Assembly (NCBI GenBank): GCA_016169945.1
Contig: JADLSH010000113.1
Location: 310,001 to 374,000, forward strand
Reading direction: 5' to 3'
Length of the DNA: 64,000 bases
Origin: Trachythela sp. YZ-2020
Lineage: Eukaryota; Cnidaria; Anthozoa; Malacalcyonacea; Clavulariidae
Shown piece by piece: positions 1,138 through 64,000 of this stretch (its first letter is position 1; every line of letters begins with the position of its first letter). Below the pieces are notes generated by a model. It was given only the letters and a program-made list of their open reading frames with translations, was not told where the DNA came from and did no database searches. Position numbers and translations under genes: made by a program.

Positions 1138-1636
1138 GGGAAAATTTTGTAATATACTCATCTAAGTCATCTTGTACTTTGTACTGGACCAATTATCTGT
1201 GATTTTCCGTGCCTTGTGATAAACATATCTATATATTCTACTTTGGTAAGTAAGTATGGTATGAACATTTACATCTTCCTATAATTGTGAGTTTTTATCG
1301 GAATTTTTTTGGAATAACCTTTTATTTATAGCACTACAACCTAGCCATTGTTCCAGTACTCGTATTTTTGGACATCGTTGCTCCACATAAATATTGGATG
1401 TAATTGTGGCTTTCAGTAATGATGGTTTCAGAACTGTCAACTCTTACAGGAGCAACATATATAAAGACCATAAACTGCCTGTTGATGACCATCTGTCCAT
1501 CAGCTGCACAATGGTGCTTTAATAGTGGAACCCATTACCCACCTATTTCATGTTAAATATTGACCCGTTAATAGCAAGGCATATTTACCATACTCAAAAC
1601 TATATTTTAGATATTTTCTCGCAAAAAAATTCCACA

Positions 1637-3615
1637 ATGGATCAAACTTATCTCCAAGAGCCATTAGCCACTAATGATCCAGAGGTTTACGAAATCATCA
1701 AGAAGGAAAAGACTCGTCAAGTCCGAGGCTTGGAGCTGATTGCTTCAGAAAACTTTACGAGCAAGGCTGTGCTTGAAGCCATGGGGTCTTGCATGCATAA
1801 TAAATATTCTGAGGGTGAACCGGGCAAGCGTTATTATGGAGGAAACCAGTTTATTGATGAGATGGAAATATTGTGTCAAAATAGAGCACTGCAGGTTTAT
1901 GGGTAAGTAACAGTGCACCGATTGACCCCAGATTTTCTCTTGGTACTTTGTCTTCCTAAGGGAGGACTCATATTGGACCTCTAGGGAGAACAGTTTAGAA
2001 CTGTTATATCTATCCAGTATAAATAAAGGTAGTTTAGTTTAATCCCAAACCCTTGTTTTCCATTACAGTCTAGATCCAGAAAAATGGGGTGTAAACGTCC
2101 AACCCTATTCAGGCTCACCGGCAAATTTCGAAGCCTACACAGCGTTGTTGAGCCCACACGACCGAATCATGGGGCTGGATCTTCCTGACGGCGGACATCT
2201 TACCCATGGCTTTATGACGGATAAGAAGAGGATTTCTGCCACGTCAATCTATTTTGAATCCATGCCGTACAAGCTGAACCCAGAAACTGGATATATTGAC
2301 TACGACAAACTGGCCGAGACTGCAAAGTAAGTTTTGGGTGATTGGCTGATTAAACAAAGACTTTGTTAAGTTTGAGAATTGATAGGTTTCAGTAAGCGTT
2401 CGAAGGCAGCAGATGGTGGTCAATGTCAGAAATGTTGACACTTATAGGAGCAAGAAAAGTGAACTGCATATTTGTTGACCACCATCTTCTGCACAACAGT
2501 GTTTTATACCACAGTCAGATTTGATGGATTATGCTTATATTTTTCAGACTTTTCCGTCCCAAGATCATTATCGCAGGCTACAGTGCTTACCCTCGGGACC
2601 TAGATTACAAGAGATTCCGTGAAATCTGTGATAGCGTCAACGCTGTCTTACTTGTCGACATGGCCCACTTTAGCGGCCTGGTTGCAGGCGGGGTCATCAC
2701 CAGTCCTTTCGAACTTGCCGATATTGTCACGACCACTACCCACAAGTCTTTGCGTGGCCCCCGAGCTGGCATGATATTCTACCGTAAAGGCGTAAAAGGT
2801 CATTCCAAAACTGGCGAACCAATTATGTACGATTATGGCCCACGGGTTAACAGTGCTGTATTCCCAGCCCTTCAAGGTGGTCCACATAACCATGCGATTG
2901 CAGCTCTATGTGTAGCCCTCAAGCAGGCACTCCGGCCTGATTTTAAGGAGTATGCACAACAGATTATCGATAATTGCAAAGCCATGGCAAAAGTCCTGGT
3001 GACTAAAGGGTATAATCTAGTCTCTGGAGGTACAGATAACCATCTTGTATTGTGGGACGTACGACCGCTTGGAACAGATGGAGCAAAAATGGAAAAAATA
3101 TTGGAAGCTGTTTCGATTACAGGTAGGTCAATTACATCTGTCTGACAGATCATCTGTCTCTGTGTAGACATAAGACAAACAATCTGGAAAACCTAGCTTG
3201 AATAATGCAATCTATACTGTCCATGGCTCTAAGATCAAATTATGCCAGATATTTCCCTGCTAATCCCTCTAATGCTGTTTTTATACACATAGTCCATCTA
3301 AAATCCTCATCTATTTTAGTGAACAAGAACTCATGCCCTGGCGACAAAAGTGCACTTCGCCCAGGCGGTCTTAGAGTTGGAACCCCTGCTCTGACCTCAA
3401 GAAATTTCAAAGTAAAAGAGTTTGAAAAAGTCGCAGAATACCTACACCAAGGCATTCAACTTGGGCTGGAAATTGTCAAAGCAAGTGGGCCTTCGCTTAA
3501 AGATTTTAATGCAAACATGGCGAAAGAGGAATTTGCTTCAAGAATCAAAGCTTTAAGGGAGGAAATAGAAGTATACAGTGCGAAATATCCAATGCCTGGA
3601 CATGAACTGATTTAA
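1637..3615 (+). CDS. SHMT1: Serine hydroxymethyltransferase
   Basis: PLP enzyme that converts serine plus tetrahydrofolate to glycine plus 5,10-methylene-THF, feeding one-carbon metabolism. Four exons (1637-1902, 2069-2326, 2548-3122, 3320-3615) join in phase to 464 residues, matching the family length. Visible signatures: [13 protein letters not shown] near the N terminus, GKRYYGGNQ, the PLP-lysine motif [14 protein letters not shown] (Lys at about 241) and [15 protein letters not shown]. The start at 1637 is chosen because a plausible acceptor ends at 1610, which puts the upstream in-frame ATG (1550) inside the 5' intron; if that ATG were used it would add 29 residues with no clear targeting signal. 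A 5'-UTR exon probably ends at 1245. Poly(A) signal AATAAA at 4018-4023. No mitochondrial presequence is evident, so I favour the cytosolic form. Confidence 0.95.
2385..2515. mobile_element. MITE family A copy in SHMT intron 2
   Basis: Ends resemble GCAGCAGATGGTGGTCAA and its inverse TTGACCACCATCTTCTGC, with internal sequence AAATGTTGACACTTATAGGAGCAAGAAAAGTGAACT shared piecewise with copies near 7.5, 8.0, 29.1 and 55.7 kb. It is short, inverted-ended and non-coding, so most likely a non-autonomous DNA transposon. A more decayed copy lies at about 1395-1515 in the 5' intron. Confidence 0.6.
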
Positions 3616-34566: not shown

Positions 34567-37381
34567 ATGGCTGAACGATTCGTAGATGGAGATGGGAGTT
34601 CGGATTTTGGTATCGATGTAGAGTCGTCTGTCGTTCAGAATGATCAGATAGTTACAGAAGACAACCAAGTTGCTAGCAGTCAAGAAAATATGGTACATGG
34701 ATGTGACACTATGAATACAAGACAACATTTGTTCGATCAGAAGGGAATTGCAGTTGAAAATTCTGTTAGCTTAACTCATGATGTAGTGGAGTATCCAAAA
34801 CCAGCTGTTGAAAACCAGCTGTTGAAAACCAGCATCGAAATGTCAGAGCAATGATTGGCCTAAGACAGGATGCAGTTGATGAATCTGGTGCACCAAGTAA
34901 CTATGCTGTTGGTCATCAAAATGTGGCATTTGGAGATTTTAAGCCATCAGCTTGTGACATGGTAGATCGGAATAAGGCTACAGTTGAAGACTCTATTGAT
35001 GCATCAAGTGATCATGTTGTTGATCGGGAAAAGGGAACAGTAGAGGACCATGAACCAGCTGGTGGTATGGTTGATCGTAGACAGTCTACAGTTGATTCTT
35101 CAGCTAGTAATGTAATGGACTTTGAGGTTGAACAAAAAAGTAGTGTGGTTGTAGATAGGAATAAAGCTACCGTTGAAGACTCAACTGGTGCATCAAACAA
35201 CCATATTGGTGAAACATCAACAGTTAAAGATCCAAATAAAAGTGGTAGGGTAATAGTAGACCGTAACAAGGCCACAGTCGAAGATACAGCTAGTACATCA
35301 GGTGACCACGTTGTTGATCGTGAAAAGGGAACAGTAGAGGACCACGAACCAGCTGGTGGTAATTTAACAGACTTTGTGGTGAAACAAAAAGGTAGTGAGA
35401 TTGTAGATCGAAATAAAAATACAGTTGAAGACACATCAAGTGACCATGGTGAAACGTCGACAGTTAAAGAGCCATGTCTAAGTGGTGGAGCAATAGTGGA
35501 TTGTAACAAGGCCACAGCCAAAGATGCAAGTGACTCTATTGGTAGGAAAGTGGTAGATGGTACATCAACTGATTTTGTAGATCGTGAAAGATTGGTAGCT
35601 GGTAACCTGGTAGATCGTGAGAAACAAACTGTTGAAGATACAGAACCATCGACTCAATCAAATTCATCATATGATCATGGTGTAGCTGTAGCAGGCACAA
35701 CACAGATTACTGGTACAAACCAACCTAATCATCTGGTGAACAGCAGTGGCACACAATCAGGGATAGGTAATAACATGGTAGATCGTGAGAAAAAGACATT
35801 AGAAGATGCTGTGCCATCCACTCAGGCGACAAGTGTAAATAATCCAGGTGTTCCAGATACTACACAGCCTAATCACCAGGTTGGTGGTGTTGAACTCCAA
35901 CGACAATTCAAGCAGGGTTGCAATATTGTTGATAGAAGACAAGTGGCAAATTCACATCCAGAAGGTGAGACTCTCTAGTCAACGTTTTTTCAAAAAGTGA
36001 CTGACTGGCCCAATGACTGAGCAACCCACTAACTCACTGACATACCAACTGACTGGCCAACTGACTGACTGTTGGACCTACTGAAAATGTGACTGACATT
36101 TAGCTTAGGTTATTAGGCTTATCTGCATAATATTTAAAGCTTTTCTTTTATACTTATTTCAGCAGAAAAATGGATAATTCAACTGCATGTGAACAATGCA
36201 AGTAACAAAAAAGTAAGTGACCACTTACCAACCTCTGGCCAATGCTTCGAATGGAACAAAGCAGTTGTCTTCGGCAGAGGGGTCGGTGTTGACATCTTCA
36301 TAAATGATGACGATGCTTCAAGACAACATGTAGAACTGATGGGACAAATTTTGCCAAATGGTCAAGTGTTATTTATGACCAGAAACATCAGTAGAAGTAA
36401 AGGCTATAATTTAAATGGACAAAATATCACTGACAATAATCTATGGACACCATTAAACAAAGGAGACCAAATTAAAATAGCTGGACTTGTTTTTGTTGTG
36501 GACATTATTCCTGCAAGAGCCATTATACAAAAGTTTGTTATAGAATTTCAGCTGCCCCAAGTTCACCATAGTCCAGTCGTGACCATACCACCCAATGGCA
36601 ATTATATTCAATCAAACTTACCATCACATAATTGTATGCCTATGCAGCCACGTTGGTTTCTGACCGGTAAGTATATAATGGTGTGTTTCTATCCAAACAT
36701 GGCAGGTTTAATCTCTCTCCTGTAGTGACACTGGAGTAATATAGGATGGTGCTTACTGGACCTCTAAGCAGTAGCGTAGCCAGCCTGCCGATTTAGTCCC
36801 GCTGTGCAAATTTGTTTGTGTTCATTGATGATTTGATGGTGAAAACAATCAATATCTAAAGAAATGAGCATAGCGGGACAAAATTGGCGGGCTGGCTACG
36901 CCACTGCCTCTAAGTAGAACAGTTAAATGATAGAGCTATCCAGTATGCAGTTTGTTTAGCTTAGGTCTAATTCCTCCTGAAGTAACACTGTACATACTTT
37001 CTGTCTTGAATTTTCAGGCTACCCCCAACAAACATTACTGGTGACATGGCCGAACATGTACTACAACCATACCAAGAGAGGGAGGGGTATGTCAAGTTCA
37101 CTAAGTTACGCTACCTTGCCTTGGAAGCTGTGGCTGTGTGGGAGGAACTGGGGCGTGCCTTAGGACTCAAAGATTGGCAACTGACAATGATTAACAGAGA
37201 CCACCCTAATAGAAGTGGTGAGAAAAGTTATCAAATGCTTAAAACATGGGTATGGTGTAATCCTGAACAGGCAACACTTGCAAATCTAAAGACGGCGCTC
37301 GAAGATATCACAGTTGGTAGGGCAGATTTAGCACTTAAATACTGTACTTTTGAAAATAATGGTACAGATCATTCATCATAG
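34567..37381 (+). CDS. TIFA-like FHA plus Death-domain adaptor, copy 1, with TVED repeats; frame broken
   Basis: Likely signalling adaptor. Exon 1 (34567-35964) starts in ideal context (GCCACAATGG) and encodes a long disordered region with about a dozen repeats like MVDRNKATVEDS and VVDREKGTVEDH. Exon 2 (36163-36666) encodes an FHA domain: VVFGRG, DASRQH (SRxH) and NISRSKGYNLNG, the phospho-threonine binding places, plus a TIFA-like FVIEFQLPQ tail. Exon 3 (37018-37381) encodes a Death domain (WEELGRALGLKDWQLTMIN). Two oddities: a 14-bp tandem duplication at 34797-34824 shifts the frame, so the reading ends at 34854 and the repeats continue in another frame from 34851; and exon 2 (ending in phase 1) does not join exon 3 in frame with the strong GT-AG sites seen. 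So it is either a recently damaged gene, an assembly error, or spliced in a way not visible here. FHA-Death is not a combination I know as a described family. Confidence 0.75.
34797..34824 (+). repeat. 14-bp tandem duplication causing a frameshift
   Basis: The unit AAAACCAGCTGTTG occurs twice back to back (34797-34810, 34811-34824), followed by a partial third copy. 14 is not a multiple of three. With one unit, the frame from the ATG at 34567 runs straight into the repeat frame that is open to the exon end at 35964. Confidence 0.9.
35990..36095. repeat. (CTGA)n-rich tract in intron 1 of copy 1
   Basis: Irregular run of ACTGACTGG, CCAACTGACTGACTG and similar. A matching tract lies in the corresponding intron of copy 2 (about 39940-40025) and a third in an intron of the alpha-kinase gene (about 45340-45540). 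Confidence 0.7.
36722..36990 (+). repeat. SINE tail in intron 2 of copy 1, split by a hAT MITE
   Basis: SINE words (TCCTGTAGTGACACTGG, GCTTACTGGACCTCTAAG, then AGAACAGTTAAATGATAGAG) are interrupted by the 138-bp hAT MITE. Copy 2 has a SINE at the matching intron position in the same orientation relative to the gene, so this insertion predates the duplication. Confidence 0.65.
36769..36906. mobile_element. hAT MITE, 138 bp, perfect 8-bp target duplication
   Basis: Starts CAGTAGCGTAGCCAGC and ends GCTGGCTACGCCACTG. It is flanked by CCTCTAAG at 36761-36768 and 36907-36914. A truncated relative is at 61660-61795. Confidence 0.9.
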
Positions 37382-37595
37382 AAAGAATGTAAGACAGACC
37401 TGAGAAAGCTCACTAGAACAGCACAACTTTTTAGTATAAGTAATCGTAGTTCTATGATAAAATTGTTACCACTAAAAAGGTTTTGATATATTGTACTCAA
37501 TGTTATTTAGATGTAATATTGTAACTGGGAGATAATGGAGCACACCACAATTACCTAAAGGTGGGACCGGAGTAAAACAAGGCAGGGCCATGACT

Positions 37596-37912
37596 CAGTG
37601 GCGTAACTCCTATGAGCTCTACCCGGTAAGAGCCGGGGCCACCCAGGTGATCGGGCTTCCAGGGGGCACCCTGAACTGAGTTGTCCGGGGACCAAACAAA
37701 TTGTAAATTTTGTTATGTTAAAATGTTGTTTTCTGACCATCAGAATTCTGTAAAATCTTCCCCCAAAGGGCCAGGAAATGGAATTTCAGAGACTCTAGAT
37801 TAAAAATTTTCCAGGGGAGCATGCCCCCGGAGCTCGTGCCTTCGGCATTCGTACTAGAAGGGCCTTTAAAAATTTTGAACCGGGGGCACCCTGATATAAC
37901 GTTACGCCACTG
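37596..37912. mobile_element. hAT MITE, 317 bp, perfect 8-bp target duplication
   Basis: Starts CAGTGGCGTAACTCC and ends GTTACGCCACTG. It is flanked by CCATGACT at 37588-37595 and 37913-37920. It has a GC-richer interior than its surroundings and no transposase frame. Confidence 0.9.
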
Positions 37913-38400
37913 CCATGACTTTTAACATACCTGAAAGACAGGGCAAGGACTTTTATACAAACTAATATAGCAGGCCATCTACTTTTATGATATCACAGAT
38001 AACGCGTACGTTGCTTGTCGCGCGCAGGAAAAGTGACCATAAATAATAGAAATGTCAATACTGTGCATTTCCCTGAACACGAACTAGTATTGCCAATCAC
38101 CCAGTTAATGCCGCCAGTTTATTATCAAATAATTGCCAAAACATAATATTACAGTATCACAGTATGTGCATAAAACAAATATAGATAACGTAAAACTATC
38201 TGCGTAGTTTTTGTCTACACAGACAAACTTGCGTGCTTAGTTCCGTAGTTCGTCTTGATGAATCTGTCCATGTGCATAAATCCCTTTGACGGATGATCCG
38301 TTAATTATGTATATGAGTACTAAGATGCTTCGTCTTGAGCTTATACTGTGATCCACCAGAAATGTGTTGACCAGAATCTTGATTGCCGAAATTTGGCAAT

Positions 38401-38485
38401 AGATTTTTGATGAATCAAACTTGGAACAGAGTTGATAAGATTAAATCTTATCAACTCTGTTCCAAGTTTGATTCATCAAAAATCT
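38401..38485. repeat. 85-bp near-perfect palindrome
   Basis: Arms of 42 bases: AGATTTTTGATGAATCAAAC, then TTGGAACAGAGTTGATAAGA, and their exact inverse, centred at 38443. Part of the arm recurs at 38504-38552 (ATTTTTGATGAATCAA, TATCAACTCTGTTCC). It would form a strong hairpin or cruciform in the spacer of the inverted duplication. Confidence 0.95.
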
Positions 38486-38596
38486 AATCAAAATGTCTTT
38501 GATTAGATTTTTGATGAATCAACGAATTTATCAACTCTGTTCCAAGTTTGATCACTTGTACTATTCGGCACTTCATATTCACTCCGTCATCATTTT

Positions 38597-40774
38597 TCAA
38601 TCAAAATATTTCACAGCTAGGTCTCCTCTGCCCACCGTCGAATCTTCAAGAGCCGTCTTTAGGTTCTCAACTGTTGCCCTTTTGGGGTCACACAACACCC
38701 AACTTTTAAGCATTTGGTAACTTTTCTCAACACATCTTCCATAGTCCTGGTTAATCACAGCGAGTTGCCAATCTTCGAGTCCTAAGGCTCTCCCCAGTTG
38801 CTCCCATACATCCACGACCTCCAAGGCAAGATAGCGTAATTTAATCAACTTGACATACCTCTCCATTCCTTGGTAAGGTTGAAGTGAGCGCTCTACCATG
38901 TCATTAGTAATATTTCGCCAGTCACCTGAAAATATAAGAGAAAGTACGTCCAGTGTTACCACAGGAGGAAATCTAAACTAATTTTATTTATACTGGATAG
39001 CTTTATCAGTTCTAAACTGTTCTTCCTAGAGGTCCAGTAAAGATCATCCATTATTGATCCAGTGTAGCTATAACTGTATATAAGAGGAAACCGAAGTACC
39101 CGGAGAAAGCTGCCATGTTTGGTAGAGTCAATCTGGAATCATTCATCTCACATGCGATTGAGATGACATTGTAGCCAGACTGCCAGAGACAAGTGCATAT
39201 TGCAAAAGTAACAACCCACCTGTTAGATGAGGTTGACTAGGTGGTATACTACCATATGCTGGCGACCAATGTGCCTGCATAGACGTACCAGTATTTGGTG
39301 GTAAATTAAAGTGAATACAATTTCCATGGACTGGTTGAGGGATTGCAAAATTGCTATGAGGGTTGGCATGAGGCTGAATACTAGTGTGTTGGTTATAAAG
39401 ACCTTGGTGACCATTGGGTGAATGTGGTACTGTGGGATACATTGCGCCAGGGTTGGTCACAACTGGACTATCGTGAACTTGTGGCAGCTTGAATTGTATA
39501 GCAAAATTATCCAAAATGGCTTTTGCAGGGATAATATCCACAACAAAAACAAGTCCAGCTATTTCAATTTGGTCTCCTTTGTTTAATGGTATCCACTGAT
39601 TATTATTAGTGTTATTTTGTCCGTTTAAATTATAGCCTTGACTTATACTGGCGTTTCTGGTCATAAATAATGCTTCACCATTTGTAAAGATTTGTCCCAT
39701 CAGCTCTACATGGTCTCGCGAAGCACTCTCATCATTTATGAAGATGTCGGCACCCTGGCGTCTGCCGAAAAGAACCGGTTTGTCCCATTTAAAGCATTCG
39801 GCTGAAATGGGTAAACAATTTATTATATCGTTGCCACACGCAATGTCGACATGGAGTTCAAGAGTCCATTTCTTACCTGTTGAGATAACTATAAAAGAAA
39901 ATAAGACTAAGATTTTTTATCACCCATTGCAGGTTTGGTTGATTGGTCAGTCGGTCCATCAGTCACCAGGACGTCAGCCAGTCAGTGAGTGAGCTAGTGA
40001 GCGAGTGAATTAGTCAGTCACAGAATGTTAATGATAAACAAGGCAGTAAGGGTGGAATGTGTGATCCCGCTTGCCTCGAAGAACATGAAGGATCGTGTGT
40101 ATAAAATTGTTTTAAAACACACGGAAGAATAGTGACATGTTTGAAATATCTGTACATGTTCTATTTTATTAAGTAAAACATCTCACCTGTTGTTTCTCGT
40201 CTTCTATCAACAATATTGCTACGCTCTTTGAATCGTTTTACCAGTTTGCCACCATGATCATGAACACCATGAGCATTGCTTCCGCCAACCAGATTCTTAG
40301 ATTTCCTACGAACCAGTGTATTTACACATGTGTCTTTAGCTGATGGTGCAGGATCTTCTGTATTTTTTTGACAATCTACCAGGTTATTATCTTTCCCTGA
40401 TTGGATCACAGGTTGGTTGTCTTGAAATACAACAGTGTCTTCAACGGTAGCGTTATTTCGAGTTATTTTCTTGCTACGATTAGCTAAAAGGCCCAATAAG
40501 TTACTACTTGAATTTGTCGACCGCCTACAATCTTGCATACCACATTGCTGATGGTCCTCTATGGGTCTCTTTTCGTGGTCAACAACACGGTCGCTTGCCA
40601 TACCACCAGCTGGTTAATGGTCTTCTATATTCTCTTTTCATGGTCAACTACATTGTCACCTGACAAATCTCTCGCGTCTTCCACTGTAGTTTTATTCCAA
40701 TCTACCACCTCGCGCCTCGATAGCTGAACATCCTCATGAAGATCATTGATTGCAGAATCTTAAGTCTTCTGCAT
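38597..40774 (-). CDS. TIFA-like FHA plus Death-domain adaptor, copy 2; 5' part decayed
   Basis: Paralogue of copy 1, inverted, tail to tail. Exons 40187-40601 (or upstream), 39220-39876 and 38597-38925 join in phase; from the ATG at 40601 they give 466 residues. FHA core: VLFGRRQGADIF (Gly176-Arg177), SASRDH (Ser191-Arg192-x-His194), NASISQGYNLNG; then a Pro/His/Asn-rich linker (about 255-355) longer than in copy 1; then the Death domain (about 370-455: VWEQLGRALGLEDWQLAVIN). The repeat region is eroded: one clear NNATVEDT, a PIED and a shortened NTED. The ATG aligned with the copy 1 start is at 40774 but meets TAA at codon 5, and a further stop with frameshift lies near 40622-40645 inside another repeat. 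Copy 2 may be translated from 40601, or be a pseudogene. Confidence 0.75.
38948..39215 (-). repeat. SINE copy in intron 2 of copy 2
   Basis: Family words ACTGGATAGCTTTATCAGTT, TTCCTAGAGGTCCAGTAAAG, GTTTGGTAGAGTCAATCTGG and ACAAGTGCATATTGCAAAAG. Its position and orientation relative to the gene match the SINE in copy 1. Confidence 0.65.
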
Positions 40775-41660
40775 TGTGGTTGGTATCGCTTTTAATGTAT
40801 TATAACCAAAATACAAATCTAAGAAACAAGTATGGCACTCATTAATAATTCATTCTTAAGAAGGCTTGTCATAAGAAACAAAAATACTTTCATATAAACA
40901 GAACAATTATTACATTTTAGTTAAGCATATGGTTTATATTAGTGACTAGAAAGTGATTACTATAATTTTATTTTGAGTAATTAATATCAAAATATACACA
41001 TAATGGCATAGAATAAAACAAATTCAGTAGCATTTAGAATTTCATTTTGAAAATCCAAGATATGGACGAAAATCAAGACAATATATATATATATATATAT
41101 ATAAATAGGTATATGGTGATTTTGCAGTTGGTCTGAAGAGGCTTAGTCATAATATTTTATGAAATAAAGTCGAAATATAACCAAATAAAATGTTGTCTAG
41201 ATTTTAGTCCATATCTTGGATTACTACACAAAATGAAACGAAGCGATTTAGGCTTGTAATATGTGGGTTTTACCAAGCACTCATCATGTAGCAAATGGTG
41301 CTCAACCGACAGTTATCAGAGCCAACCAAATAAAAAGCACTAGTTTGACAAATCATTGAAATATGGCAACACAACACAATATATTTTATCCCTGTGCCAA
41401 CCGAACGCATAAGAACGTTCATAAATATGTGTGGAATGTGCAGAAACATTGTTGCAAGTATCGCGGATATTATAAGATATAAATGTAGCAAAATGTAATA
41501 CCTTAGTAGACTTTTACAGTGAAAACATTCACCAAGGTTCCTTCAAAATTCTTCGGAATAACTGTGAATCACTCCTTCATAAAGGTATCTATGTCTTGAA
41601 TGAATGGAAATTTTATTTCGACACACGCTGTGATTAGAATTTAAAGGAATTCGAAGTTAT
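40775..41660 (-). promoter_or_regulatory. Upstream region of copy 2, mirrored by 33940-34566
   Basis: Inverted homologue of the copy 1 upstream region, including the partial MITE family A end (GTAGCAAATGGTGCTCAACC, about 41287). A (TA)n tract lies at about 41079-41103. TTTATT at 41612-41617 could serve as a minus-strand poly(A) signal for the alpha-kinase gene. Confidence 0.45.
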
Positions 41661-42102
41661 TTAATGATGAGCATTCAACTAGAGAGGACGGTTAGTCAGC
41701 AATATATTGGAGGACCAAACTTCATATCTTGTTAACGCATTGCCTAGTAATGCTAGGTTCTCATTTTAGTACCTTACAAAATACTAGATTGAAGTATTAT
41801 TTACACAAGGACATTGAACACATATTTTAATTGCAGTATTGCACATGACTTAATACCAGTTAATTGTATAAATGGTCAGTTAACAGGTGCAGTGCCATTT
41901 TGTGGATAGACTGTCTAGTCATCATTCTTCTTATAATTAAATACTATTATTTCTAATGAACTCATCAAATTTTACTCTGCGCTTTTACGTCACTGACGTT
42001 TCATTGAAGATGCGTCACTGAACGCGTGTATATATATATATATATATATATGTACGAGTTGGCCGAACGGCGAAGTTCCACTGTAGCATGGTGAAAACTG
42101 TA

Positions 42103-45100
42103 TTAAGGTCTGGTAAGACCAAGTTGTTGGCAAATTTCATTGCACTCCCCGTGCATATCCTGCCAAAATTTATTAATGCCACGCATGCCTAGGTTACCTG
42201 TACCATACAACTTTTTTTCAACACTGTGTATCTGTGGATCAGTAAGGAATGTTGTGGATAGATGATCTTCAGTGGTCCAGCCCTGGTGGTCTGTGATAAG
42301 TAGCGTATGGTTTGATCTCTCGTATGTGAAATGACTAAATAGATGGCAAATGATAGCTCTATCAGTTCCAAATTATTCTCCTTAGAGGTCCAGTAAGGAG
42401 CATCCCTTATTAAGGAACCAGAGTACCCAGAGAAAACCTATGGTGTCTGGTAAAACTGGAAACACTCTTCTCACATGTGACTGACGTGAAATTATAATCA
42501 AATAATTACAATTTATTGCAAGAATCAAACACCCCAATTCTTCTCTGTCTATAAGACCACATGAGTTTACTAGTTAATGCGATAACCAAACTAGATTAAG
42601 TTTGCCAAGACATTTACCTGAAAGCTAAGACCAGTTTACTTCCAGCCCCTTCTTTCTCAACAAAGCTCCAATTGTTCGTTAGTTTCTTGAAGTTTCCTTG
42701 CATGTACGGCTCTACATTGTATATAACTGAGCTTGTTTCACCACTGTGTGTGAGCAAAGTGATCATCACCACGGGTAAGAATTGAATTGGACTCGCTTCG
42801 ATACCTATATGGTAAATTAATTAATAAAACAAGATAAGCAAATCATGGTCACATGTATGCATCAAATCCTAGTCAGAGAGGTGGAACATATACGTGCAGC
42901 AGATGTTGGTCAACCTGTCGTAACGACTTTTAAAAGTTTGAAACACACCGTACCTTTATGATATAGCTCTTGGTTAAACAAGCTGACATAATAACGTGCA
43001 GTCATCTGGCATTTAACATCCTCCTTGTACTGTTGTGGTCCAAGAGGCCCCTTATATCTTTTACCCACATATTTTCCCATTGGTTCATCTTGACTGAGAT
43101 ATTCCACCATATATGGATCCCTTTGTGCCCCTTCATCGTCTTTGGAGAGGTGGAGCTGTTCCCCAATGTAAATAAGTGTCCTTCGTGTTTGCCACTTGGA
43201 GTGCACTGGATCATAGGATGAAACCTCACATTCTAAAATGAATGAATAACATTTTAGCTAGGGTTAAGTTTAAGGTAGCTTCTTTACTACAGGAGTACAC
43301 AAGAAAACCTGAGGTGTTTGGTAGAGTCAAACTGGTAGCACTCTTCTCACATGTGCTTACTTACTTACTAATCATAATCACACAACTGCATATTTCAGTA
43401 AGGATATACCACTTACCATGAACATTAGTATTAGTGAATGGGTTGTACATTGTATCTACATCCATATACTCATCACGTTGCTCACTGGTCATGTCACTGC
43501 TGTCGAAGTCATCTATTGTTAACAACGTTGTCTTACAGCGGTCCACAGTTGAGGAACAGGTTGAGGCCAGGGAACTAACATTTAGTTTTTGTAGGGTTTC
43601 AGCACATCTATCCACTATTGGAGCTTGGGCTAGGGTCATGAAAGACAACATTTGTGAGTTCTTGGTGTGATTCAGTATTCATTACTCCAGAAATGTTGAC
43701 ACTAGCTAATAAGAGACATGGCAGATGGCAGTCTGGTTAACCCATTAAGTGGTCAGGTTACTCAGGTCCTTATTACCTATCTTTTAAATTACAATATTGC
43801 GAGATATATTTTTCATGTAGTCCAGACACATTAACTACAAGAGATTATTGTAGAATACCACAGGTCTATAAGTACTGGACCCTACGTTTAAAATATACCT
43901 GATTCAACGTTATCTTCTCTGACAGATTCTGAAGCATTACCAGTTGTACCAGCCACATACATATCAATTTCAATATATGATGGTAATTCAAGAATTTTTA
44001 GTGCTGTGTTGATATACCCTTTACTGTTATCATCGTGGACAATCGACAATTGATTATGAGAATAATGATAAAACAGAGCCATCGAAATCAATTTCAAATC
44101 CAAGTGCTGTTCTTGTTCGCTATTCTTCAAAACACAACTTGTCAAATACAAGGCGCTGATAAATTCATAATACTGTTCACGACTTTTTAAAGAATCAAAA
44201 ACCTTGTGTGCAGCTAAGCTTTCTTTCAATTCCTTCAAGGCATCAGTGAGGTATTGGGTTTTAAGCTTGTCTTCAGACAGCTTTGAATATTCTAACAACA
44301 TTTGTCCAGCACCACACTAAAAATATATCATTTTATGGTCATGTGAACATGATAAAACAATATATCCAAGATAAAAGTTAGTTCATTTTTCACTTACTTT
44401 ATGACAGGCATAAAACAATGGTGTATATATTGCCAACTCTGCAGCTTCAATTGCAAATTCATATGCTTGAATATAGGGATGAGATGCTTCCAGAAAAAAC
44501 CTCTGTGCAATAAGTTTGAATTCCTCAACTGACATATGTTGTAGAGTGTTAACACACCGTCCTAGGCTATGAGACAAGCCTTTCTTGTCAACTTTTGGTA
44601 GCATTTTGAAGAGATGTACTGAATCAAGCAGCAACACAGCAGAGTTATACCACTGTCCAAGTGTGGCCTGGATTTCGCCTTTTATTTGCACACAGACAGC
44701 TTTAACCAGATCATGGTGGTGATCTTCCCTGTAATGCCACATACCAAGCTTCTGTGTTTCATTTAATAATTTGTCCAGAACTTTCTCAGCACCTTACAGT
44801 CAGATAAAAGTTAGGGTATGTGACACAATGGACCTCTAGAGTTGGAACAGTTTACAATTGATACAGCTATGCAGTATATAAATAGTGCTAGTTTAGTTTT
44901 TAATAGGTTTCCTTGTGTAGTAACACTAAACAAATAGGAGATGAGTCATACTGGATTAAGTGAACAAAACTTAAAATTAGTTTTATTAGTTTAGTTCAAT
45001 GTCTTTAATGAAATTGCAGTGACTCAGGGACATAAAATTAAAACAAAAATTTATCTTCCATACACACCTTGCAGATCACCTGAGGTTCGCAAAACACGAG

Positions 45101-46961
45101 CTTTTCTGATGACCAACTGTGGGGCAATTGGCAGTTCAGGTTTCTCCTTCATGATTGAGTCGACAATATCCAAAAGCGTTTTGGACCCGCCTTGCCAATA
45201 AATATATCTGTCAATGAGGAACAATATTGCTGCCATATTTTCATGGTCTTTTCTAAGAACTGCATGGTGTAGAGTTTCCTAAATTTGGAATACAAAATAC
45301 ACACACTAAAATAATGCATTGAGAAACCTAGTTTGATGTGTCGGTCTGTCAGTCAATTAGTCAGTGTGTCGGTCGGTCAGCTCCGGTCATTCAGGCAGCC
45401 AATAAATCAGTCAGGCTGTCCATCACAGTCAGTTGGTCGGTCCATCTGCCAGTCTGTCAGTGAATCAATCAATCAGTCAGTCGGCACATCAGTTGGTCAG
45501 TCAGCCAGCTAGCCTGTCAGTCAGTGATTTGATTGGTGAGTGGGTCAGTCAGCTCTGCAATTTCTATAATTACCTGTAAAACATCAAACTGTGTTAAATG
45601 AGGAAGATTCTCCACTTTCATGGTTATTAGATCTTTGATGCTATAATTTTCATCCTCACCAGCATTTTTGACATATTGCCTGTTGAACAGAAAGATTGAT
45701 AATCAAACATGGTCTAGTGTAGGATTAGTATTCAACAATAAGCTAGCTGCTGTGGTTCGTGTCTAAACTACCTGAAAAGTTAGCTCTATATATAGCCCCT
45801 TGGATGTGTACAATTATTTAGTAATTGTACCTACCATTTTTCTGGTACAAAGGGCCATGAATTATTTCTTGCTTCTTTGATGAGACCAACCAACTCTTCA
45901 TTAAGCAACGCCATCCAGCATTCAAATACATCAAACTTCAAATCTGTTTTTAGCATCTCACCTTTGTTTCCCCTGGTCAGCACAAACTCTCGGACACAGT
46001 CGCTCAGGGTAACTTGTCCGAACAAATTTCCATAATGCCCTGGAGGTTCATACTCAATCAAACCAATCTGAATAATTCTGGACAGAGTATCAGCATTCTT
46101 TAATGGTAGTGCTCTACGAAGCTCACTCAATTGTAAGAGCACCAATCTTTCATGATCACTTAAATGAAGCCAAATTAAGTTCAAAACATAAAGAACAGGA
46201 CTTTGGTTGCCGACTTCTTGATACTGAAGTGTGCCAAGCATCCGAGATGCACTAACAAGCATTTGAACAGCTTTTGGGTTAAAGTGAACGGTCTCACCAA
46301 CAGATTTGTAATTGGTGTCCAAATATTGGATGGTTTTTTTCCACTTTAAGTCGCTACCAATCACTGCAAGGTTAAGGCCATGGACTTGAACTAGGGTTTC
46401 ATAATTTTGGGGTAGTGTTTCTGTGTTTGATACACATATAACATTATTTTTCAATTTGTGTATTGTAGACATCAACAATGTATATAGCTGATGGTTTGTT
46501 TCAGAAATGGACAAGTTGTCAAAACAGACAACTGCACAACTGTCAAAAACGCTAACCATTGCATCTTGTTTTGCTTGTCGAGTGCTACTTTGTGAAGCCA
46601 ACACTGCTGCAATGCTACCCAAATTTTTCACCCTTGCCAATTGAATTCCACAGTTCCAAACACAATTAACATTGTCATGTTTGTCAATTTTAATGTAAAT
46701 AATTTTGGATTCCTCGACTGAACGATTTTGGATTAATTCCTTGAGTATTGCTTTGCAGAATGTCGTTCGGCCACTGCCAGTCTTTCCGGCTACATGAAAC
46801 AGATTTAGACCATTTTTTGCTTCGGCTTTTGAGTCTAGGTTCTTGCATATTGAATCGCACACATCTTGTATACTTCTGCTTGTTGAAAGTTGACTTGCTT
46901 GAGTTATTACTTCTTTCTCAAACTGGTTTACTTGGACAGTTTTTAGGGCCCAATTGTTCAT
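42103..46961 (-). CDS. STAND-like NTPase with helical repeats and C-terminal alpha-kinase
   Basis: Nine exons join in phase to 1055 residues: 45835-46961, 45574-45679, 45068-45278, 44398-44792, 43899-44316, 43417-43629, 42954-43232, 42618-42804, 42103-42334. N-terminal P-loop VAGKTGSGRTTF (59-66) with Arg where Walker A has Lys, Walker B-like AVVCFDNL (Asp148), then a winged-helix-like stretch (LSDHERLVLLQLSELRRALPL): a STAND/NB-ARC-like switch. Residues about 400-750 are helical and TPR-like. Residues about 824-1055 are an alpha-kinase: KYVGKRYKG (Lys881), VEPYMQGNFKKL, LAFSHFTYERS, LLITDHQG (Asp994, Gln996), FLTDPQIHS, GTGNLGMRGI and the zinc motif HGECNEIC. The kinase resembles the eEF2K/MHCK class most. 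An in-frame TGA lies upstream of the ATG, but an AG just before it allows an unseen upstream exon. This NTPase-alpha-kinase fusion beside FHA-Death genes suggests a sensor kinase. Confidence 0.85.
42345..42590 (-). repeat. SINE copy in alpha-kinase intron 8
   Basis: Words ATAGCTCTATCAGTTCCAAA, CCTTAGAGGTCCAGTAAGG, GTACCCAGAGAAAACC and CTTCTCACATGTGACTGA; same family, minus orientation. A fragment of the same family lies at about 43290-43400. Confidence 0.6.
45340..45545. repeat. (TCAG)n-rich tract in alpha-kinase intron
   Basis: About 200 bases of GTCAGTCAGTCGG-type units with drift, between the exons 45574-45679 and 45068-45278. The same tetranucleotide tract occurs in the introns of both FHA-Death copies. 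Confidence 0.8.
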
Positions 46962-47761: not shown

Positions 47762-49707
47762 ATGGCTGATCCTATAGAAGTGTTACGAAGGCCTGAAGTA
47801 ATCTGCCGACTTCTATCTTTAGTGAGTATTTGTGTATATTATTGGCGAAATTTCGAAGTTATAAAATATTTAGTCGATGCTCGTGGTGTAACCACTATTG
47901 AACACTGTCGTATTTGAATTGTTTAACAACTGAAATTGTTGCCTTGAGAAGTGCCCATTTTAGAAAGCCTAAGTATTGCAAGTTTCGTTTTTACAAACGG
48001 TAATATTAAGAAGATATTGTTGCTCTCACAAACGTGTAAAAAAGCCATTTTGCAAGTTTAATTTGAAGTGAATATCATGACGCAAGCAATTAGTAATTAG
48101 CAATCATGCTCATGTATATATAACTCAGCAATTTAGCTGTAAAATCGCTGTATTTTTAGCAATAAGTTTTAGTTTACACAACAAATTTAACACCCTAGAA
48201 CATATAGTAGAAAACCTAGCAAAGAATTGATCCCAAAGACGTTGTATAAAAGCGACATTCATAAGAAGCAAACCTGTTTCGTTATGCATGGTACACGTCA
48301 AAATTGAGGCTCTTTCTCGATATACGAGCAACCGAATAGGGATTATTAGGGATTATTAGGGTTAGGTTGGTTGGGGGTTAAGATTAGGATTAGTTGCTCA
48401 TATATCAAGAAAGCACCAAAATTGGTTTCCTATTTCAGTTTGTTCATGACCGTTTGTAGTAAATATTGTAGTATAAAGAAGTGACACACTTTTCCCTTGA
48501 CAAGGAAAACCGTCTGGCATTAGTCAGAGTAAAATATCAAAGTAGAGCCCATTGTGCCTTAACGGGTTAATTACTGGTAACCAATTATTGCCCAACACTT
48601 TCTCCTTGACAAATAAAATCATCTGGTGTTAAACAGAGTAATGTTTCAAACATTGGGGGCATTGCGGCTTAATGGGTAAATAACTTAGCCCCGTTTACAT
48701 GAGACCGAGATGAAGTCAGAGTGAGTTTTGTCAATAGGTTTACATGAGACCGGTACAAAAAGCATTACACACTCTATTGCTTATATCAAATGTGCAGTCC
48801 ACAATTGATGCTGTTAATTTTTCATCCCAGTCTCATGTAAACACCTATTATAAATAATACTATGACCGAAACAAAATCGTCCCGGTTTGACTTCGTCCCG
48901 GTCTCATGTAAACAGGGCCTTAGACTTGGACTAATATCTCCAGAGCATTGACTTTTTTTGTACTTGTGGCCATATTTTGAGCAGAATCTTTTTCCTCTAG
49001 TTGTTTTCAATCATCGTATTTGGTTGTATAGCAGATAAAGGCAAACCAACAATTCTTGGTGAGAAATATTGTGTTTACAACGGAGATGATGGTGCGTGCA
49101 ACTATGGAGTTGCTATTGGGGTGATTGCGTTCATTGCTTGTCTAGTATTCCTTGCCACAGACTTCTTCATGGATTCCGTATCGAACGTCGAAGCCAAGAA
49201 ATATATCTTTCTTTCTGATCTACTGTTTTCTGGTGTTTGGACGTTCCTGTGGTTTGTCGGTTTCTGTTATCTCTGCGACAAGTGGCGAAAGACAGACAAT
49301 AAGGATAAATTATTCTCTTCACAGGAAAAGAGTAATGCTGGAGGAGCAATTGCTTTCTGCTTTTTCTCCATTCTTTCTTGGGTAAGTGTTAATTGCCATG
49401 TTTTGTATCAGAACTAAATCTGAACATTTACCTCTGGAGGAAGGGAGCATTTACCTCACTGCATAATTCAAACCAATTTTTGTTTGCTTTTAAAATCTAG
49501 GGTGTTCAAACATTCCTTGCATTCCGAAAGGTCGGCGGAGGAGCAAGCAACTTCGAATTTGGTGGACATAGTCGACAACCCTATGAGAGCTCACCTTACT
49601 CCTCGTTCCCCGACCAACAACAGAATGAGGACCCGTACCAAGCGAAACCATTCGAACAATCTGGTCAGACTGATCAATCTGGGGAATATAAACCACCGAC
49701 ATACTAA
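47762..49707 (+). CDS. SYNGR: Synaptogyrin
   Basis: Four-pass MARVEL-domain protein of small secretory and synaptic vesicles. Three exons (47762-47821, 49001-49381, 49501-49707) join in phase to 215 residues, close to the family size. Exon 2 carries all four membrane segments: LFSIIVFGCIA, YGVAIGVIAFIACLVFLATD, DLLFSGVWTFLWFVGFCYL and AIAFCFFSILSWGVQTFLAF. The family motifs YCVYN and FLWFVGFCYL are kept. The cytosolic tail is Gln/Pro/Tyr-rich, ending EYKPPTY. The start is the first ATG (47762). Poly(A) signals AATAAA at 50029-50034 and 50305-50310. Confidence 0.93.
48689..48918. mobile_element. Fold-back MITE (GTTTACATGAGACCG ends) in synaptogyrin intron 1
   Basis: Left end CCCCGTTTACATGAGACCGA then GATGAAGTC; right end GACTTCGTCCCGGTCTCATG then TAAACAGGGC. 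Flanked on each side by CTTAG, a likely 5-bp target duplication. Further GTCTCATGTAAAC words lie inside. Confidence 0.75.
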
Positions 49708-61795: not shown

Positions 61796-62546
61796 CAAAC
61801 ACAAACACACGCAAACAAACAAACAAACCTCCTGGGCGAGGTGATTGCACTTTACAATAAAACGCATGAACGCCTTGGTATTCGCAAACTCGTTTATACT
61901 TTTGAAACGAATATACAGAAGGATTCAGACAAACGTCCACATACAAATACAACTTTAAAAGCAAATTTTCTATGAATTCTGTTTTTTAATAAAAGTAATC
62001 TTGTAGCTGTGCAGTATAGCATAGCATAGCCGAAAGTAGTTCAACATATTATACAGGTATATAACTTCAAATCATGTCATGAAACTCAGCTAAAAATATT
62101 TACTGGCCTAATTAAAACCTAAGTGTTTTAAGCACAGCTTGATATTTATACAGGGTTATTAAAAAATTCCTTGCCTGCATAACCTATTGTCTAGAGAGTA
62201 AATATAATCGTTATTATGCAAAGCAAATACTTGTCTGGACACAATTGCTTAACATACGTGGCATTAGCGGTCAACTGACAAAGGCGGAAGTGATAACAAT
62301 TTCTTTAGTTTTCGTTCTAAATCTCTGGTTCTAAATACATCCTTCCGCAAAAGATTTCAAGCGATACTACCACACAGACTGTCTTGCAGAAGTTATACTG
62401 CATTCATATGATTGTCTACATGTATATAGCGTGGTTAACTTCAAAGGAAAGCGTAAATTCATATAGCGTGGTGTTTACGATGTAACAGGCATGAGATGAA
62501 CAAAAGTCTATATATATCATTCCAAGAAGTGGACGGCGTATAAAAT
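61796..62546. promoter_or_regulatory. Upstream region of the RING-TRAF-Kelch gene
   Basis: About 750 bases, AT-rich. A TATA-like TCTATATATATC lies about 35-45 bases before the ATG, which would leave a very short 5' UTR. The word ATAGCGTGGT occurs twice (near 62428 and 62464). I see no C2 exon of the minus-strand gene here. Confidence 0.4.
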
Positions 62547-64000
62547 ATGGCATCATATGATCTAGGTTACGAGGAGGAAAGGTTTGCGACTAAAGTGAAC
62601 CGGAATTTCCATTGTCTCATATGTTTTAATGTTCTAAAAGACCCTGTAATGTGTCAGAGAAATCAACATTGCTTTTGTAGAGGCTGTATCACAGAACATC
62701 TTTGTGTAAATGCTCAAAGATGCCCTACTTGTGCAGAGGGACTGACTGTAGATACATTGACTGACGCACCGAGAATGGTCAAGGATTATTTATCAGAGTT
62801 ACCTATTTATTGTGATTATCAGGATAGAGGTTGCCAAGAAATTGTTCAGCTACAAAACCTTGGCAGCCATGTTGAAAAGTGTGGTTTTAAACCAGTCGTT
62901 TGTGCAAACCAAGGCTGTGGTATGACAATGAATCAGCGCGATCGAATCCACCACGAGAGTGAACTGTGCGAACACAGGAAGTTACAGTGTCATAACTGTG
63001 ACGAAATGAGCATACTGATGGCGGGTATGCAGAGGGATTTGGCAAAATTGCAGGCGAATGTGGCGAACGTCGAAACGAAAGTTGCAAAGGTTGACAGAAA
63101 TATGGAGAACATGCAGAACATGGAGAATAATATGGCGAATATGGAGATAGGGATGAATAACATGCAACTGAATATGGCCAGTCTAAATATGAATTTGGTA
63201 CCAAACATGCAAACCAATATCGGGAAGTTGCATAGGAGTAGCGAAAAAAATTTCGAAACAGTGAAAAGCGAAGTAAAGGAACTCAGAAGGACTGTAACTG
63301 ACGAACATGAAAGCTTGAAAGAAACATTACTCGCGAAAATAGAGGGCTTAGGAAAGAAGCAAGAAGAAATTACAAGTGATGTTAGACAACTATCAAGTGC
63401 AAAGGAAAACCAGGAAGGTATAATTGTTGCTGGTGGTATTGGCGAGAGCTCAGTGGAAATATACAACGCCAGCCAGAGATCTTGGTCACTTCTACAATCC
63501 ATGCCAGGCAAGCGTTTCCAAGCCTCCTCATTTGTTTACAAGAATCATGTGACTATAGCTGGGGGTTATTGCTCTGGTATGACTGTAGATGACATGATTG
63601 GAATGAATATTTATCCCTACCCTCATCCCTTAACAGAATGGGAAAATCTTTCCACCAAATTGCCGAACAGGCTAGCCGGCCATAGTAGTGCACTGTTCAA
63701 CGATAGTTTGTTCGTTACTGGAGGATGGAATGATGACGTAGATGAATACTCGGGCTGTATTCACGAAGTGCAACTTGAGCCTCCTTACTCTGTCAAGTTG
63801 GTAGCCGAAATGCCAGAACGAAGAGAAGGGCACTGCACAGAGCTATTCAACGACAATATCTATATCTTTGGGGGAAACCAAACAGGCTTAAATGAACACA
63901 AGCTTAGAAGTGTTGAACTCTTTGATACAATCAAGAAAGAATGTGAACAGCTGAAACCATTACCTTACCCCGTGGCAGACATGGCAACAGTCAAATGGGC
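62547..64000 (+). CDS. RING, TRAF-type zinc finger, coiled-coil, Kelch protein (runs off right edge)
   Basis: Open without a stop from the ATG at 62547 to the window end, 484 codons, with no intron. The order is RING finger (about 23-60: CLICFNVLKDPVMC, HCFCRGC, CPTC), TRAF-type zinc fingers (about 88-150: YCDYQDRGC, HVEKCGFKPVVC, CEHRKLQCHNC), a long coiled coil with Met/Asn-rich heptads (about 155-290), then Kelch repeats (IIVAGGIGESSVEIYN, NHVTIAGGYCSG, DSLFVTGGWND, DNIYIFGGNQ). It is probably a ubiquitin ligase with a Kelch propeller for substrate binding. RING and TRAF fingers resemble TRAF proteins, but the usual TRAF-C domain is replaced by Kelch. Target and pathway cannot be told. Confidence 0.85.
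   Translation, partial: MASYDLGYEEERFATKVNRNFHCLICFNVLKDPVMCQRNQHCFCRGCITEHLCVNAQRCPTCAEGLTVDTLTDAPRMVKDYLSELPIYCDYQDRGCQEIVQLQNLGSHVEKCGFKPVVCANQGCGMTMNQRDRIHHESELCEHRKLQCHNCDEMSILMAGMQRDLAKLQANVANVETKVAKVDRNMENMQNMENNMANMEIGMNNMQLNMASLNMNLVPNMQTNIGKLHRSSEKNFETVKSEVKELRRTVTDEHESLKETLLAKIEGLGKKQEEITSDVRQLSSAKENQEGIIVAGGIGESSVEIYNASQRSWSLLQSMPGKRFQASSFVYKNHVTIAGGYCSGMTVDDMIGMNIYPYPHPLTEWENLSTKLPNRLAGHSSALFNDSLFVTGGWNDDVDEYSGCIHEVQLEPPYSVKLVAEMPERREGHCTELFNDNIYIFGGNQTGLNEHKLRSVELFDTIKKECEQLKPLPYPVADMATVKW

Follow-up and report, generated by a model that had tools for sequence, protein, structure and literature searches.

A candidate ALPK1-TIFA-type locus in an octocoral: an ALPK1-like gene with an added NTPase adjoining putative TIFA-like Death adaptors

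In mammals, the kinase ALPK1 acts as a sensor of the bacterial sugar ADP-heptose. According to the available parts of the literature, ALPK1 phosphorylates TIFA at Thr9, upon which TIFA polymerises (PMC12457700, PMC13283784), and ALPK1 is itself phosphorylated upon sensing of ADP-heptose (PMC10113258); the available text of one of these papers, published in 2025, states that invertebrate lineages have neither TIFA nor ALPK1 (PMC12457700). Here we consider a stretch of animal DNA with introns from the octocoral Trachythela sp. YZ-2020 (64,000 nucleotides, positions 310001-374000 of contig C327; hereafter, the window; the whole genome comprises 578 Mb in 396 contigs). It carries a gene, here called K, that encodes a probably STAND-like nucleoside triphosphatase (NTPase), an ALPK1-type ADP-heptose-sensing domain, a linker and an alpha-kinase, next to two FHA-Death genes, A and B. 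Sequence comparison contradicts the published absence from invertebrates as regards ALPK1-like proteins, and a predicted fold casts doubt on it as regards TIFA-like ones. The neighbourhood is real, and it is nearer to ALPK1-TIFA than the initial annotation of the window had proposed. On balance, we favour the view that the locus is an octocoral sensing module of the ALPK1-TIFA type. What is new, as far as sequence and structural models can tell, is an ALPK1 with an added NTPase that adjoins TIFA-like Death adaptors; no description of an octocoral ALPK1/FHA-Death module was found in open-licence PubMed Central titles or abstract openings.

K occupies positions 42103..46961 on the minus strand, B (FHA-Death copy 2) positions 38597..40601 on the same strand, and A (FHA-Death copy 1) positions 34567..37381 on the plus strand, convergent with B. 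From the stop codon of K, the distance is 1.5 kb to the first usable Met of B and 4.7 kb to the stop of A. Since the DNA of B that is similar to the repeats of A begins near 40707, and the first usable Met is at 40601, the gap between K and B comes to 1.4-1.5 kb; the adjacency noted in the initial annotation thus holds, whereas its estimate of about 1.3 kb was too short.

The ALPK1-like gene

The nine exons of K, joined across GT-AG introns, form an uninterrupted frame of 1050 aa, with the stop codon ending at 42103; two alternative acceptors of exon 6 are also in frame and would yield a protein of up to 1055 aa. The alpha-kinase domain (42103..43232, minus strand) matches the Pfam Alpha_kinase family, PF02816, above the gathering score (E 3.5e-42). 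Among PDB sequences, searched with a query that lacked the first Met of K (residue numbers there are one lower than those of K), it matches ALPK1 (8zd3_B) with an E-value of 6.9e-51 and 176 bits, against 1.3e-20 for eEF2K and 6e-20 for MHCK A (76 and 74 bits, respectively), so that a kinase of the eEF2K/MHCK type can be ruled out. The alpha-kinase phylogeny that the initial annotation had suggested as a check agrees with these scores: in a tree of 15 rows, K falls on the ALPK1 side, which is split from four other alpha-kinases (eEF2K is absent from the tree) with support of 99/98, and K itself joins three coral-like rows with weak support (80/80). The caution, voiced at the same time, that this kinase might be nearer to eEF2K/MHCK than to ALPK1 is upheld by neither result. 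The catalytic Lys1067 (human numbering, here and below) is identical in 11/11 aligned rows, including K.

The sensor domain is equally recognisable. Residues 348-676 of K, encoded by exons within 43899..45920 (minus strand), match the ADP-heptose-binding helical domain of ALPK1 (5z2c) with an E-value of 1.7e-49 (phmmer). Across K and ten aligned relatives (P0011-P0018 of the 18 database matches described below were left out), the positions of Arg150, Arg153, Asp231, Lys233 and Phe295 are identical in 11/11 rows, and those of Phe61 and Gln67 in all 8 rows that cover them; Phe61, Gln67, Asp231 and Phe295 are, we assume, residues of the ALPK1 pocket. Mutation of Arg150, Arg153 or Lys233 abolishes activation by ADP-heptose, and Lys1067 is required for catalysis, as stated in the available parts of two papers (PMC10723048, PMC11614533).

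When residues 340-1050 of K were compared with 5.8 billion proteins (8000 candidates scored), the 18 matches listed included eight mammalian ALPK1s, three other alpha-kinases, proteins of Pocillopora, Branchiostoma and Lineus that are named alpha-protein kinase 1-like, an uncharacterized protein of Rhopilema and three unnamed coral-like sequences. The Pocillopora protein shows 44% identity over 99% coverage. Thus, invertebrate ALPK1-like genes have already been deposited in databases under automatic names. By sequence, K is ALPK1-like over both its sensor and its kinase domains.

The N-terminal region of K, residues 1-375, is encoded by exon 1 (45835..46961, minus strand) and contains, by eye, a Walker A motif of a P-loop NTPase, GKTGSGRT, as well as a hydrophobic strand that runs up to an Asp, AVVCFDN. 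The Pfam matches of this region to ATPase families, namely NACHT, AAA_16 and nSTAND_NTPase5, are all weak and below the cut-off. The structural model has a mean predicted local distance difference test (pLDDT) score of 52, being fair only at approximately residues 71-180, and a Foldseek search with this low-confidence model retrieves CED-4 on top, with ORC, TRIP13 and Apaf-1 close behind, at template modelling scores of about 0.3. The NTPase of K is likely to be STAND-like, as far as such a model allows. The region is common to the Pocillopora (26% identity) and Rhopilema (20%) proteins; in the sequences inspected from Branchiostoma, Lineus, platypus and Microtus, the sensor domain comes first.

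Two putative TIFA-like genes and their state

Gene A consists of a repeat exon (34567-35964), an FHA exon (36163-36666) and a Death exon (37018-37381), gene B of exons 40601-40187, 39876-39220 and 38925-38597. Both domains are above the Pfam gathering scores in both genes (FHA, E 2e-5 and 9.2e-5; Death, PF00531, E 3.1e-10 in A and 1.1e-9 in B), the Death domains reaching 40.5 and 38.7 bits at a cut-off of 22.6. The FHA exon of A (36163..36666, plus strand) yields an AlphaFold2 model with a pLDDT of 81 overall and block means of at least 86 over residues 1-130. The top eight Foldseek matches of this model are all TIFA or TIFAB, above other FHA domains, and the aligned range takes in both strands that flank the FHA domain. 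The flanks that the initial annotation had described as TIFA-like are present, reading KWIIQLHV and FVIEFQLPQ in A, and KWTLELHV and FAIQFKLPQ in B. The closest counterparts of this FHA domain, by predicted fold, are TIFA and TIFAB. The residues GR, SRxH and N, presumably those on which FHA function depends, are invariant in seven aligned rows, the fragment P0025 having SLxH.

A profile built from five FHA-Death rows places the Death domain nearest to RIPK1 and TNFR1. The TRAF6-binding motif PxExx(acidic/aromatic) was found neither in A (four pieces) nor in B, nor in the related proteins P0019, P0021 and P0022; P0020 and P0023 have one match each, in or beside the Death domain. At the level of sequence, this agrees with the proposal that a Death domain stands in place of TRAF6 recruitment. 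Because the C-terminal TRAF6 motif was not found, we refer to A and B as TIFA-like and not as TIFA. The two genes share 55-58% identity with three octocoral proteins, of which two carry names, found in Paramuricea clavata and Dendronephthya gigantea; both of these species have full-length, intact relatives. A scan of the FHA-Death alignment over viral and genome contig collections yielded nothing.

As assembled, the frame of A is broken twice. After about 81 codons, it is shifted by a tandem duplication of 14 bp (copies starting at 34797, 34811 and 34825); further on, the FHA exon ends in phase 1, but the Death exon (37018..37381, plus strand) is displaced by two bases, at a CCCCC run, and does not continue its frame. 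With intron 2 retained, a repeats-FHA frame of 558 aa that lacks the Death domain runs open from Met 34851. In B, some 340 bp around the start codon appear, from BLAST blocks, to be lost, and the first repeats contain one shift and one stop; from Met 40601, an FHA-Death frame of 466 aa, with one intact TVED, is open across two GT-AG introns. The DNA between these convergent genes contains, by eye, an inverted repeat (about 38400-38530) that is perhaps the seam of an inverted duplication. Degenerate GACT/CTGA repeat runs are seen, also by eye, in introns of K (45340-45560), A (35990-36090) and B (39930-40010).

These breaks call for attention to the possibility, which we regard as real although distinctly the lesser one, that A and B are pseudogenes, a decaying relic, and that only K still works here, perhaps with other partners. 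The duplication and the out-of-frame Death exon of A, the lost start region, stop and shift of B and the failure to find another copy in the genome would all fit such a relic. The ratios of nonsynonymous to synonymous substitution rates (Ka/Ks) between A and B speak against it: they are 0.42 for the FHA domain and 0.20 for the Death exon, so that constraint lasted through most of the period after the duplication, and decay, if real, would be recent. So do the frames that persist, the FHA-Death frame of B and, with intron 2 retained, the repeats-FHA frame of A. Finally, comparison with B and the relatives suggests the CCCCC run as the cause of the second break of A, which could be a sequencing error; the intactness of K argues against generally poor sequence.

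Linkage, a common motif and a possible mechanism

An FHA query found two loci genome-wide, namely A and B (both candidates were scored; a diverged FHA domain could escape, and Death domains were not searched for), and no additional copy was found within 90 kb on either side of the locus; a large FHA-Death family, near which any kinase would fall, can therefore be ruled out. A sensor-domain query also found two loci, K and a paralogue on contig C155, by eight exon matches, five on C327 and three on C155. Both FHA loci thus lie within 6 kb of one of the two ALPK1-type loci, and the naive chance for one locus to be within 10 kb of either ALPK1 is approximately 7e-5, A and B being counted as a single event. 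In this one genome, the linkage is far above naive chance. There are at least 150 alpha-kinase matches, counted by exon (the best 150 of 232 candidates were scored), and proximity to just any alpha-kinase would therefore be weak evidence, but the sensor domain occurs at two loci only.

As an observation apart, the alpha-kinase matches, many of them in long open frames, point to a large expansion distinct from ALPK1, and two loci, L001 (1420-3204) and L002 (1-2142), have what by eye seems to be a VWA domain ahead of the kinase.

The second line of evidence is a motif. Gene A carries an array of VDRxKxTVED repeats (34960..35964, plus strand), and VDRxxxT is common to the adaptor repeats and the linker of K, where TVDRCKTT at residue 775 lies within the linker exon (43417..43614, minus strand) and SVDRCAET at residue 752 spans the junction of exons 5 and 6, its first residue depending on the acceptor chosen for exon 6. 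Genome-wide, the repeat array was found in A and B only, with a sensitivity too low to list a single motif such as that of K. From 26 instances of VD[RC]xxxT[VL][ED] (nine in A, four in Paramuricea, six in P0020 and seven in Dendronephthya), we built a matrix and scanned 15 ALPK1 rows (K and 14 others; P0002, a near-copy of P0001, was omitted) and three other alpha-kinases; the motif had been picked after it was sighted in some of the scanned kinases, and the fractions given here are uncorrected for multiple testing. The best hit in K lies in the linker, at 11.0 bits against shuffled maxima of 2.4 ± 2.8, with 0/300 shuffles as good. Linker hits are also best in Pocillopora (13.3 bits, 0/300), P0004 (13.8, 0/300), Branchiostoma (12.7, 0.003) and P0005 (8.0, 0.037); Lineus and all three control kinases are at chance. 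K contains two copies of the plain motif [ST][VI]Dx4T (0.06 expected; one of them depends on the exon 6 acceptor), and the lancelet protein has five in the linker and one in the kinase (0.07 expected for the protein); none was found in Lineus, platypus or the three controls. Some FHA domains, such as Rad53 FHA1, prefer pTxxD, and TVED fits this preference.

By homology with ALPK1-TIFA, the module can be envisaged as follows. The helical domain of K would bind a nucleotide-sugar of bacterial origin (ADP-heptose or something related to it; the gatekeeper is His and not Thr), and the NTPase would aid receptor assembly, as in NLR/Apaf-1 proteins. The kinase would then phosphorylate threonines in its own linker and in the TVED repeats of the adaptors, the FHA domains of which would read phosphothreonines on K and on adjacent adaptors, creating a cross-linked, TIFAsome-like assembly. 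The Death domains clustered in this way would recruit Death-domain proteins (RIPK/TRADD/FADD-like) instead of TRAF6. Of the ALPK1-TIFA-like module originally suggested, it is the half concerned with homology that has held up, with K ALPK1-like over sensor and kinase and the FHA domain nearest to TIFA/TIFAB by predicted fold.

A number of observations weigh against this scheme. Given the two frame breaks of A and the truncated 5' end of B, no single-frame repeats-FHA-Death adaptor is encoded as assembled. TIFA received a probability of 0.2% from hhalign (one sequence; effective number of sequences, 1.8) and was not among the 11 hits of a PDB profile search, so that the link to TIFA rests on the predicted fold and the genomic context. 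By eye, the TVED repeats are unlike the Thr9 site of TIFA. In Rhopilema, the best matrix hit is in the kinase core and not in the linker (0.033); of the eight mammals, Arvicanthis and Apodemus are below 0.05, the value for Grammomys is 0.053 and the other five do not exceed chance; and the absence of the plain motif from Lineus and platypus belongs here as well. The C155 paralogue (L035-L036, C155:9876001-9896000) retains four pocket residues, namely the two arginines, the Asp and the Lys, whereas its gatekeeper residue is Ser and the surroundings of Phe295 are diverged; the 20 kb read at this locus contain no FHA-Death gene, and its linker region has no [ST][VI]Dx4T motif.

Accordingly, K might be a genuine ALPK1-like sensor with an accidental neighbourhood, the FHA-Death genes belonging to another pathway and their repeats being served by a different Thr kinase. 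The lone ALPK1 of C155 and the failure to recover TIFA by sequence lend themselves to this explanation, as does the fact that adjacent genes in animal genomes often do not cooperate; we still deem it unlikely in view of the placement of both FHA loci found in a 578-Mb genome beside one ALPK1-type locus, the recurrence of the repeat motif in the linkers of K and of coral ALPK1-like proteins, and the predicted TIFA/TIFAB-like fold.

The last question is what K might sense. At the gatekeeper position, Thr237, K has His, whereas the seven other invertebrate rows have Ser and the three mammalian rows Thr; this position bears on ligand specificity without defining the family, as the Ser of the other invertebrates shows. 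In human ALPK1, according to the available part of one paper, Thr237 blocks the response to UDP-mannose and ADP-ribose, which Thr237Ala or Thr237Met permits (PMC11614533). That the pocket of K has been retuned by His towards a host or symbiont nucleotide-sugar rather than ADP-heptose is compatible with these data and yet improbable, given that K shows no difference at the other seven pocket positions compared and that His, too, can donate a hydrogen bond.

Returning to the sensing module, we would tentatively go further and suggest, with somewhat less than even confidence, that the ALPK1-TIFA alarm predates the split of cnidarians and bilaterians; that octocoral ALPK1 is an NLR-like receptor-kinase that marks itself and the neighbouring FHA-Death adaptors with VDRxxxTVED phosphothreonines; and that these adaptors polymerise via FHA, with a Death output that either preceded TRAF6 recruitment or replaced it. 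Such an alarm may long predate the vertebrates and be wired in another way. If K and its neighbours do work as envisaged, cytosolic sensing of bacterial heptose would be an ancestral animal trait, the ALPK1 receptor may once have been an NTPase of the NLR type, and the outlet of its partner, Death domain or TRAF6, would have changed in evolution. The locus would represent a multivalent form, made by nature, of the phosphothreonine-FHA assembly behind TIFAsomes, and it permits direct testing in animals living alongside dense communities of bacteria.

The remainder of the window contains a serine hydroxymethyltransferase gene (1526-3615, plus strand; Pfam for the frame 2525-3142, flanking frames by eye), which is an ordinary neighbour, a MARVEL-domain protein (49001-49417) and, about 16 kb from K, an open frame (62544-63998, plus strand) in which Kelch repeats exceed the cut-off whereas RING and Sina-type zinc fingers do not reach it, possibly a ubiquitin ligase.

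Comparison with known systems

The closest counterparts of the adaptors are P0019 of Paramuricea (named 'pats1') and P0021 of Dendronephthya (uncharacterized), which have the same repeats-FHA-Death order, their FHA-Death parts being 58% and 57% identical; unlike A and B, their frames are intact, and their names hint at neither ALPK1 nor TIFA. With TIFA and TIFAB, A and B share the predicted FHA fold with its flanking strands, but they differ in having Thr repeats before the FHA domain and a Death domain after it, and in lacking a TRAF6 motif and a sequence-profile match.

For K, the 'alpha-protein kinase 1-like' protein of Pocillopora verrucosa and LOC135692242 of Rhopilema, both annotated automatically, show the same NTPase-sensor-kinase layout and differ in their hosts, a hexacoral and a jellyfish; no description of either was found in the literature searched. 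K resembles NLR, Apaf-1 and CED-4 proteins in having a P-loop NTPase ahead of a helical sensor, with weak model matches to CED-4 and Apaf-1; it differs from them in that its output is an alpha-kinase, and the model of pLDDT 52 matches ORC and TRIP13, too. Mammalian ALPK1 and K are laid out alike, with the sensor helical domain followed by a linker and an alpha-kinase, and they share the conserved contact residues; K adds the N-terminal P-loop NTPase, the gatekeeper His and the VDRxxxT motifs, carried in a linker of about 63 residues (by the domain cut used) as compared to 528-569 in five mammals.

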